64,000 nt of DNA from Arthrobacter castelli DSM 16402 (GTDB lineage Bacteria; Actinomycetota; Actinomycetes; Actinomycetales; Micrococcaceae): contig NZ_AUMN01000008.1 in the NCBI RefSeq assembly GCF_000430705.1, forward strand, positions 1 to 64,000, read 5' to 3'. A model generated the notes under the pieces. That model was not told where the DNA came from. It ran no database searches and saw only the letters and a program-made list of their open reading frames with translations. Below, piece by piece: positions 10,136 to 37,036 of the stretch (its first letter is position 1; every line of letters begins with the position of its first letter). The position numbers were made by a program, and so were the translations under genes.

Positions 10136-10292
10136 GAGAATGCTCCGCTTTGGGACAATTTGCCGCCGGCGCCGGTGGCAGGATGTCCCAAAGCGGAGCA
10201 TTCTCCGCCCTCGTGGCCCGGAGGATGTCCATCTGCTGCGTTTCGGGACTTTGTATCCAGCGCGCCGTGGATGACAAGTCCCCGTTGGAAGC
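10136..10292 (+). repeat. Composite palindromic intergenic repeat, copy 1
   Basis: Module 1 is a perfect 22-bp inverted repeat (10136-10157 and 10184-10205) around an inner GC-rich near-palindrome (GCCGCCGGCGCCGGTGGC). After 29 bases, module 2 (10235-10292, 58 bp) follows. Both modules recur, in reverse orientation, at 36883-37036. The element lies between convergent genes (permease and mannosidase), so it may also act as a two-way terminator. No ORF or transposase is associated. Confidence 0.85.
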
Positions 10293-28854: not shown

Positions 28855-28966
28855 TGGACTATGCCGTTCCCTAAGGGTTCGCCGGTTGCTACGGACGATT
28901 CCTTAGGTGAGGCCTGATTCTGGTTAGCGGAGCGGCGAACCCTCAGGGAGCAACCACTTCTGTGCA
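28855..28966 (+). repeat. 112-bp structured direct repeat, copy 1
   Basis: This element and the one at 30145-30256 have the same length and about 88% identity. Inside it, 28866-28884 and 28933-28951 form a 19-bp inverted repeat with two mismatches, and CCTAAGG is paired with CCTTAGG. The right half contains degenerate 20-21-bp subunits built on ATTC...AGGGAG. The two copies flank the nuclease-like gene at 29074-30021. The rest of the 28753-29073 gap shows nothing else clear. Confidence 0.85.
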
Positions 28967-29073
28967 CACGTCGGGGCGCCGTTTCGCCGGGTTCATGTCG
29001 AGGCCGTTGGGGTTATCCACATACAGAGGCGGTCCATTCCAATGACGGCGGGCTGCAGGGCAGACTTGAATGC

Positions 29074-30021
29074 ATGTCGTCACATCAGCAGATCCCCGGC
29101 CGCAACAAGCTGTGGCTCACTTTCGAGCTGAAAGACCGGGGGCTGACCGAACTCCGAATCCGGGAGATGGTTTCATCCAGTCAGCTGATCCGGGTGCGGC
29201 GGGGCTGCTACGCGGATGGCCCATGGTGGAGGGGGCTGGTGGATGACGACGCGCGGGCGGTTCAAATTCTCCATGCACACTTGCGGGCGATGGAAACGGT
29301 CGGGGTATTGGACGGTGCATACAGTCATACATCAGCGGCGCGGGTGCATGGTGTGTATTTGTGGCGGCCGGATCCACTGATCCACATTTCCAGGCCTTCC
29401 TCTGGGTCTCCCACGAGTCATGCCGCGGATGTGCGGAGCTATAAGGCAATGGTCCCGCCGTCTGAGGTGACCTGGAATTCTGGTCTGCCCGTTACCTCCC
29501 TGGAGCGGACTGTCGTGGATTGTTCTCGGATCTTCGCCTATCAATCTGCGCTGATTGCTGCAGAGAGCTCGTTCTGGATGGGGGCAGATCGCGAACTCGT
29601 TGACTCCGTGCTCAGTAGGATGCGTGGATTCAAGGGAATCGCCAGGGCCCGGCAGGTGATGGCGAACGCCAGTTCGTTATCCGAATCGCCCGGTGAGACT
29701 CTGGCCCTTGATTCGATTCGCGCAATGCGGATTCCTGTTCCAGAGCAGCAGCTGCGGGTTGAAACCAGGAACGGACCGCACCGCCTGGACTTCGCATGGC
29801 GCGAGCACAAGGTGGCTCTGGAATTCGACGGCAGGAGCAAGTACTTCGATTACGCCCCCACCAATGAAGTGCTGTTCCAAGAGCGGCGTCGTGAGAAGGC
29901 TTTGATCGAGGAAGGGTGGACCATTATCCGAATCGAATGGGCCGACCTGTTCCGTGAGGTTGAACTGAGGGAGCGGATCATGAGGGCGCTGCTGAAGAAT
30001 CGCATGGGTATGAGCGCCTGA
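29074..30021 (+). CDS. AbiEi-like N-terminus with DUF559/Vsr-like nuclease domain
   Basis: A 315-residue protein. The N-terminal 60 residues form a winged-helix of the AbiEi antitoxin type (LRIREMVSSSQLIRVRRGCY). The middle resembles the AbiEi C-terminal region (VLDGAYSHTSAARVHGVYLW and SLERTVVDCSR). The C-terminal 90 residues are a PD-(D/E)XK-like domain related to DUF559 and very-short-patch repair nucleases: HRLDFAWREHKVALEFDGR gives the D...E-F-D-G motif, followed by RREKALIEEGWTIIRIEW. The AbiEii toxin gene is absent. Function is not established; a DNA-cutting or defence-related role is inferred. The gene is enclosed by 112-bp direct repeats. Confidence 0.75.
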   Translation: MSSHQQIPGRNKLWLTFELKDRGLTELRIREMVSSSQLIRVRRGCYADGPWWRGLVDDDARAVQILHAHLRAMETVGVLDGAYSHTSAARVHGVYLWRPDPLIHISRPSSGSPTSHAADVRSYKAMVPPSEVTWNSGLPVTSLERTVVDCSRIFAYQSALIAAESSFWMGADRELVDSVLSRMRGFKGIARARQVMANASSLSESPGETLALDSIRAMRIPVPEQQLRVETRNGPHRLDFAWREHKVALEFDGRSKYFDYAPTNEVLFQERRREKALIEEGWTIIRIEWADLFREVELRERIMRALLKNRMGMSA

Positions 30022-30144
30022 GTATTTTGCTGCGGGGGACCTTCGGGGGCCTTCGGGAACGTCGGCGCGCTGCAGGGCACCAAAAGCCGCTCAAAAATCG
30101 TGGGATTGGTGCCCGCTGAATCGGGGTGGTTGGCGCTTCCACTG

Positions 30145-30256
30145 TGGACTATGCCGTTCCCTAAGGGTTCGCCGGTTGCTAGGGACGATTCCTTAGGGGA
30201 GGCCAAATTCTGGTCAGGGGAGCGGCGATTCTTTAGGGAGCAGCCAATTCTGTGCT
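30145..30256 (+). repeat. 112-bp structured direct repeat, copy 2
   Basis: Same orientation and length as 28855-28966, with about 13 differences. Its right half shows the degenerate subunits best (ATTCCTTAGGGGAG, ATTCTGGTCAGGGGAG and ATTCTTTAGGGAG). It begins 124 bases after the nuclease-like gene. No transposase or ORF lies inside it. Confidence 0.85.
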
Positions 30257-30277
30257 CATGGCGGGCCGATCACGCCG

Positions 30278-30361
30278 GGTGCCGTGCGTGGACCGATGCT
30301 GGGCGGGTGCCGTGCGTGGACCGGTGCTGGGCGGGTGCCGTGCGTGGATCGATGCTGGGCG
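30278..30361 (+). repeat. Three tandem 28-bp repeats
   Basis: Units start at 30278, 30306 and 30334 and read GGTGCCGTGCGTGGAYCG followed by RTGCTGGGCG. Only single-base changes separate the units, and a degenerate fourth follows. The array sits between the 112-bp repeat and the hyi promoter and is non-coding. Confidence 0.85.
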
Positions 30362-30413
30362 GGCGTCGTGCCTTGGTGAGGGTCAGGTGGCGAACAGGTC
30401 GCCCCGCGAGGGG

Positions 30414-36882: not shown

Positions 36883-37036
36883 GCTTCCATCGAGGACTTC
36901 ACATCCAGGGCGCGCTGGAAGCAGAATCCCGAAACGCAGCTAAATGAGTTCGGGCCCCTGGGGAACTGAAGAATGCTCCGCCTTGGGACTTAAGGCCACC
37001 GGCGCCGGTGGCAATTTGTCCCAAGGCGGAGCATTT
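36883..37036 (-). repeat. Composite palindromic intergenic repeat, copy 2
   Basis: This is the reverse-oriented partner of 10136-10292. Module 1 has an 18-bp perfect inverted repeat (36972-36989 and 37018-37035) around a perfect 18-bp inner palindrome (36995-37012). Module 2 is 36883-36940, 58 bp as in copy 1. The arms of the two copies differ at a paired position (CTTTGG/CCAAAG against CCTTGG/CCAAGG), so pairing is kept. Again it lies between convergent genes, allB and bcp. Confidence 0.85.

Follow-up and report, generated by a model that had tools for sequence, protein, structure and literature searches.

Dispersed palindromes in bacterial genomes are usually assigned to RAYT transposases or left unexplained. 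The REPs, as described in passages of PMC2817692, are palindromes of 20–40 bp that occur in more than 100 copies per genome. According to the same passages and to parts of PMC3733652, the RAYT gene is situated between two palindrome copies, cognate palindromes are scattered through the genome, and orthologues of the gene are found in the same context; the palindromes vary by lineage, and one genome may hold several repeat-specific gene sets. Intergenic palindromes are not new as such in Arthrobacter, since a table in the RepRanger paper places Arthrobacter livingstonensis among the genomes rich in predicted REPs (PMC12306157); RAYT occurs 0 times in the text of that paper, and the passage concerned ties the Arthrobacter REPs to no gene.

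Palindromic arrays are also bound by AbiEi-type proteins. The promoters of AbiEi and Rv2827c contain two and four inverted repeats of 23 bp, respectively, to which these proteins bind (passages of PMC7319586), and MTES_1575 is described in part of PMC3710099 as a restriction endonuclease of the Vsr fold. Here, we describe a gene family in which these two kinds of domain are predicted to be fused and which is accompanied by palindromes of its own. With somewhat better than even confidence, we propose that it represents a REP-like system built on a predicted restriction-fold nuclease. Among the matches listed in a search of open-licence papers, no link between this gene family and palindromes was found.

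The DNA analysed, hereafter the window, is a stretch of 64,000 nucleotides from Arthrobacter castelli DSM 16402, belonging to contig C8 of the genome that was searched (4.59 Mb in 49 contigs). The gene under study (29074–30021, + strand), delimited by the open reading frame list and by Pfam and PADLOC profiles, encodes a protein of 315 aa. Its winged helix of the AbiEi type at the N terminus and its middle part (about residues 13–163) are assigned by AbiEi profiles, whereas the putative C-terminal PD-(D/E)XK domain of the Vsr/DUF559/MTES_1575 type (about residues 204–300) is assigned by weak Pfam matches and the alignment of relatives. The window protein matches the PADLOC AbiEi profile at E 1.3e-14, and its matches to the Pfam families MTES_1575, AbiEi_4 and DUF559 are all below the curated cut-offs. 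In an alignment of 43 family members, the PADLOC profile PDLC02228 matches every member, MTES_1575 is found in 38 at E 0.01 or better, AbiEi_4 in 31 and DUF559 in 11. These matches favour the architecture predicted in the initial annotation of this DNA, which had joined an AbiEi winged helix to a PD-(D/E)XK-like domain. Five residues (E208, R237, D239, E250 and G253) do not vary across these 43 proteins, one of which is a member only 24% identical. Omega values of 0.10–0.29 across the 15 close gene pairs tested show that purifying selection acts on the gene.

A search of PDB sequences gave no convincing relative, and an AlphaFold2 model, built from 5 sequences only, reached a mean pLDDT of 37.6, too low for the fold to be judged from it. 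The nearest plasmid and phage proteins are 25–33% identical. In phages, the nuclease domain has a single match (query residues 204–302, 33%), an annotated homing endonuclease of Rhizobium phage RHph_TM61 (MN988561.1, 132561–132833). At the window locus, the four neighbours scanned, with shorter ORFs left out, are an AraC-type regulator, an NAD-binding protein, a hydroxypyruvate isomerase and a 6-phosphogluconate-type dehydrogenase. No AbiEii-type partner is among them, and the absence of such a toxin, as annotated initially, holds in that all four belong to other families.

The gene is enclosed by two copies of a palindromic element, the upstream copy 1 at 28861–28967 and the downstream copy 2 at 30151–30257 (both + strand). 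The repeat reaches over 28855–28978 and 30145–30268, respectively; the two stretches have the same orientation, lie 1290 bp apart and are 87% identical over 124 bp. The second copy was recovered in a whole-genome search at E 2.9e-36, so the repeats are not due to chance. The two equal direct repeats that had been reported around the gene are thus real and, at 124 bp, even longer than had been stated. In copy 1, arms of 17 nt (28868–28884 with 28933–28949) are 94% complementary, and in copy 2 the same arms fold less perfectly, for which the earlier description as 19-bp imperfect arms is a fair one. The subunits of about 20 bp are likewise real, appearing as internal repeats of 19, 21 and 40 bp. 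Directly behind the downstream element, a GC-rich tandem repeat array with a unit of about 28 bp occupies 30276–30371, and by eye several further copies of the element seem to adjoin GC-rich repeats.

A covariance model was built on 8 copies of the element, which align without gaps, and was then run on the genome. It found 10 full-length places, each exactly 107 bp long. By crude gene calls all 10 copies are intergenic (3 convergent, 1 divergent and 6 codirectional), and 8 of them are solo, that is, away from any family member found. The solo copies lie on contigs without any of the five paralogues described below, or about 20 kb (contig C7, the nearest) or 88 kb (contig C14) from one. The expectation that copies would cluster around family genes therefore fails in the window genome. 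Abundance away from such genes, which the initial annotation would have read against its proposal, applies to 8 of the 10 copies; we do not count it as a refutation, because distant solo copies are what a REP-like system predicts. The rule is the flanking pair rather than clustering, and it is visible only with other genomes. By blastn, the element is absent from 196 other family genomes, and the covariance model gave weak matches in 5 other genomes. A plasmid or phage origin of the element was considered and rejected, as no match was found.

The copies of the element fold with long stems and low folding energies, many palindromes in the family lie directly behind coding regions, and in a related lineage (genus g31, see below) the arms covary. 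These features would suit palindromes that are merely strong bidirectional terminators, or structural RNAs, insulating the gene by chance. However, nothing in Rfam exceeds the gathering score for the window element, and neither of its two possible hairpins shows covariation above shuffles in the 8 aligned copies, so that a structured RNA was rejected for this element. Mere terminators would also leave the gene-specific matching of the pairs, the 19-bp motif repeat and the upstream copy unexplained, and we regard this explanation as very improbable. The missing covariation in the window element, in contrast to genus g31, also counts against a REP-like system.

The window genome holds five paralogues of the gene. 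Two of them, on contigs C14 and C7, have matched flanking pairs of their own (flank scores 50 and 38, respectively), the C11 paralogue has a weak flank match (23), and the C1 and C20 paralogues have none. Solo palindromes of these other families are also present. The window itself contains two solos of the C14-paralogue family, with no strand assigned: one at 10136–10205, of the CTCCGCTTTGGGACA type, and one at 36972–37035 (CTCCGCCTTGGGAC), assigned by eye. In the 400 kb of contig C1 examined, a further C14-family solo is found at C1:257043 and two C7-family solos at C1:64216 and C1:230572; some of the C14- and C7-family assignments were made by eye.

The family was then surveyed across genomes. 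At E 1e-60 or better, 121 places were found in 92 of 395 genomes of the bacterial family; 90 of the places were analysed with flanks of up to 1.5 kb (a contig end truncates one locus), the strand of each being set by tblastn. Palindromes within 300 bp of the gene were scored as arm matches out of 30, with a loop of up to 8, and 661 genes from 120 loci, after removal of 7 family members, served as controls. A palindrome score of at least 20 on both sides was reached by 44 of the 90 homologues and by 17 of the 661 controls; flank similarity alone (local score of at least 22) was reached by 62 and 7, respectively. Two-sided palindromes together with matching flanks occur in 42/90 homologues and in 0/661 controls. 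The pattern has exceptions that weigh against it: 46 homologues fall short of a score-20 palindrome on one or both sides (9 of them on both), and palindromes are missing from two orthologues located at the hyi site (L176 and L177).

The pairs are specific to their genes. When 72-bp palindromes were compared for the 44 loci with one on each side, 43 of the 44 within-locus pairs matched (median score 39), against 149 of 946 between-locus comparisons (median score 11). Paired, gene-specific palindromes thus flank many genes of the family. GC-rich Arthrobacter spacers may be rich in palindromes anyway, in which case the pairing would be a coincidence of composition; the background of palindromes scoring at least 22 is indeed about 1 per 15 kb in 982 kb, and there are the 17 controls that score at least 20 on both sides. 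But no control combines this with matching flanks, and the pairs are sequence-specific, so the controls already refute this explanation, whose probability is practically negligible. As an association, the comparison of this nuclease gene and its repeats with RAYT proteins and REPs, first made for the window alone, is strongly supported by the 42 homologues and by the cognate solos elsewhere.

A common plan underlies these palindromes. In the 186 halves of 93 palindromes with a score of at least 22, the match rate is 0.533 at an offset of 19, compared with 0.21–0.34 at offsets 8–18 and 20–27 and about 0.28 in shuffles. Exact 7-mer repeats at 19 bp are found in 44/186 halves and at 18 or 20 bp in 4, while shuffled halves gave 2 such repeats, at other offsets. 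With this 19-bp direct repeat in the halves, a typical palindrome amounts to two direct and two inverted copies of the motif, four in all. The median extent is 68 bp across the family; in the window genome the element measures 107 bp and follows a comparable layout, enlarged by one further motif pair. Downstream palindromes of score at least 22 centre at a median of +41 from the stop codon (n = 48), and upstream ones at −113 from the start codon (n = 45). For 18 palindromes of genus g31 (A2), 62 cells changed on both arms, compared with a mean of 27 in shuffles (0/500 as high), and the covariation score of 0.309 exceeded the 0.117 of the best slid register; since the rows are related, were found with a hairpin-containing model and were centred by self-complementarity, this result leans towards pairing. 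In the genomes G144, G170, G326 and G341 (loci L140–L173), 66-bp palindromes of the form AGAAACGGCCC...GGGCCGTTTCT have arms that are highly variable yet still paired.

Between the upstream palindrome and the gene, 60 of the 90 homologues carry a TTNTCCACA box, and TCCACA is found at −55 to −58 in 58/90 homologues but only 2/661 controls. In the window, this is the TTATCCACA box at 29013–29021 (+ strand), whose TCCACA starts about 57–58 bp ahead of the start codon. The TTATCCACA box may resemble the actinobacterial DnaA box, and the TTNTCCACA box may mark a replication-linked promoter. The TTNTCCACA box is also present at the C1 paralogue, which has no palindromes.

The position of the upstream palindromes, with the TTNTCCACA box between palindrome and gene, would also be expected if they were operators. 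According to this explanation, an AbiEi-like protein is autoregulated, the upstream palindrome represses its promoter, the other copies are regulatory or decoys, and the nuclease has its role at other places, in defence for instance. The AbiEi profile in all 43 aligned members agrees with it, and the binding of AbiEi and Rv2827c to inverted repeats in their promoters (passages of PMC7319586) makes recognition of the palindromes plausible under the REP-like reading and supports the operator reading too. However, a matched copy stands downstream of the gene as well, the identity of the copies extends beyond the motif over the whole element (87% over 124 bp), the copies in the window genome fall in all intergenic classes, and at a conserved locus both flanking copies change in step, something that requires copying from one site to another. 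Operators alone are therefore rather unlikely in our judgement. The downstream copies, the whole-element identity, the concerted change and the invariant residues of the predicted nuclease speak for more than an operator.

The concerted change is best seen against the position of the gene, which is largely conserved. Of the 90 family loci, 34 form one cluster linked by common left and right neighbours, so the unit as such is not obviously mobile, and the gene was not seen to hop; the mobility envisaged in the initial annotation is thus not supported for the gene unit. It had also been stated that the unit interrupts a purine/glyoxylate gene set. The gene does lie there, but the word interrupts has to be softened, as an orthologue (54–57%) occupies the corresponding position, immediately ahead of hyi, in 5 of 80 named loci. 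Among these 80 loci, the nearest relative by hyi is Arthrobacter sp. H14, with 87% protein identity.

In the syntenic cluster only the palindromes were compared, as whole flanks are confounded by neighbouring coding sequence. Both palindromes are present at 21 of the 34 loci. The two palindromes of a locus match each other in 21/21 cases, while between loci only 74/210 comparisons match, and by sequence the palindromes split into four groups (15, 4, 1 and 1 loci) with no connection at the match threshold. To judge from these sequences, the gene stayed in place while both of its flanking palindromes were rewritten together. Such a concerted change requires copying between sites, and we consider it the strongest hint of an active process. 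A special coevolution of winged helix and palindrome was not borne out: in a test that used whole flanks and was thus confounded by neighbouring sequence, the partial correlation with palindrome divergence was 0.11 for the winged helix and 0.27 for the nuclease domain. As the winged helix tracks the palindromes no better than other domains do, this goes against a simple one-domain recognition code.

Palindromes also differ in presence between relatives. In the hyi-glxR and glxR-gcl spacers (loci L018–L097), several unrelated palindrome families of 60–70 bp come and go between related Arthrobacter genomes. Among these presence/absence cases no copying event was caught and no target duplication was visible, which counts against our proposal, and the relatives' spacers that were compared gave no clean insertion junctions with target duplications. 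A further alternative is a homing-type selfish nuclease, which would cut a solo palindrome on another chromosome, whereupon the gene with its flanking copies would enter by repair. The gene does sit between two copies of the presumed target, and the nuclease domain resembles the homing endonuclease of the Rhizobium phage (33% over 31% of the query). But gene positions are largely conserved, as the 34-locus cluster shows; among loci compared unsystematically, no site was solo in one genome and gene-bearing in another; and both flanking copies are intact, so the target would remain cleavable. We find homing quite improbable.

Two palindrome types were followed across genomes. The first, the TCGACGGTTCCCTGC type, was searched in 24 genomes. 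Single TCGACGGTTCCCTGC matches occur in all 24, and specificity lies only in arm pairs spaced 43 bp apart; these are present in 6 genomes (G009, G354, G370, G372, G373 and G374), while the remaining 18 have none. The pattern TCGCCGGAACGGTGC likewise has matches in 24/24 genomes among the matches listed. For G372, the flanking palindromes that were fetched belong to a type other than TCGACGGTTCCCTGC, and in G376 and G308 the flanking palindromes are of the TCGACGGTTCCCTGC type, yet no exact 43-bp pair is found. Reading of 14 stretches revealed 15 solo palindromes in 5 genomes with no homologue beside them; one, in G373, is 3.5 kb from a family gene. Thirteen of the 15 lie between called ORFs and 2 inside crude ORF calls. 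Some solos recur next to one and the same gene across several species (L313, L319 and L322), and part of the solo spread is therefore old, a point against the proposed system. At L314 (G354:C6:459000-469500), a 348-aa ORF (MVDPKVWKG...) is present twice, 5.5 kb apart, each copy adjoining a single TCGACGGTTCCCTGC motif.

The second type, the CCAACT family, was first met as a hyi-glxR intergenic repeat that only some of the relatives possess, and it was chosen blind to any gene. Its strict pattern gave 15 sites in Arthrobacter sp. B6, 14 of which are solos, and between 0 and 10 in each of 7 further genomes. We scanned 26 distinct sites for family genes, namely 14 of the 15 from B6, 6 from G402 and 6 from other loci matched by the pattern. 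One site adjoins a homologue (E 9.5e-27, 24% identical), and this gene has a CCAACT palindrome on both sides, scoring 29/30 each. A family gene beside one site in 26 would be no great rarity; one with matched copies on both of its flanks would be. Cognate solo palindromes are thus dispersed in the same genomes as the genes.

How the REP-like system might work can be outlined as follows. The AbiEi-type winged helix would recognise a short motif that is repeated in its palindrome, and the four motif copies, two direct and two inverted at 19 bp, would let several protomers assemble, with the element of the window genome offering a further motif pair. The Vsr/DUF559-type domain may then nick or cut DNA at the bound element or at an extruded hairpin, and repair or recombination would copy the element to new intergenic sites and homogenise existing copies, while the gene stays put between two cognate copies. 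The upstream copy probably doubles as an operator, by analogy with AbiEi biochemistry. We infer recognition and dispersal of the element by the protein from the organisation described above. A wider reading, on which we are evenly divided, is that Arthrobacter and its relatives harbour a large, unrecognised REPtron-like class, in which an AbiEi winged-helix/Vsr-fold nuclease that is inherited in place, and of which a genome has several orthogonal paralogues, recognises its own palindrome of four motifs, spreads it between genes and stands in for the HUH transposase of classical REP systems.

If the protein does spread or homogenise palindromes, this would be a second, independent solution to the biology of REPs, and a likely job for many genes of a family that resembles orphan AbiEi antitoxins but is accompanied by matched, dispersed palindromes of its own. 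Since a single genome contains several orthogonal pairs, each a control for the others, the recognition code lends itself to direct testing.

Among known systems, the AbiE type IV toxin-antitoxin systems share the AbiEi-type N-terminal region and the binding of inverted-repeat arrays by AbiEi proteins. At the window locus, however, no AbiEii is found among the scanned neighbours, the C-terminal half is nuclease-like, and the element is also downstream and dispersed. The Vsr/DUF559/MTES_1575 nucleases, including homing endonucleases, are similar in the C-terminal domain and its conserved acidic residues, whereas in the present family this domain is joined with an AbiEi winged helix and accompanied by cognate palindromes. 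Like MITEs, these palindromes are short, dispersed, non-coding and mostly intergenic. In contrast to MITEs, inspection by eye revealed no terminal inverted repeat belonging to a known transposase, no target duplication was visible, and the gene that goes with the palindromes encodes a predicted nuclease and lies between copies of the element itself.

The closest likeness is to REPtrons. The window gene lies between two cognate palindromes, as do 42 of the 90 homologues, and cognate palindromes are dispersed between genes, in 10 copies in the window genome. The differences concern size, number and enzyme. Palindromes of the family span a median of 68 bp (107 bp in the window) with motifs 19 bp apart, instead of 20–40 bp, and there are 10 copies in the window genome and at most 15 strict-pattern sites in 8 other genomes, instead of more than 100. 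A RAYT was sought in the window genome and rejected: Y1_Tnp (PF01797, IS200/IS605 group) has 0 matches there, and the same search was positive in 5 of 14 control genomes. In place of a Y1/HUH transposase, the predicted enzyme is an AbiEi winged helix joined to a Vsr/PD-(D/E)XK nuclease. The organisation is thus REPtron-like but the machinery is not, for which reason we rate the system as a new kind; it looks like an independent reinvention of the REP/RAYT arrangement with an unrelated enzyme.
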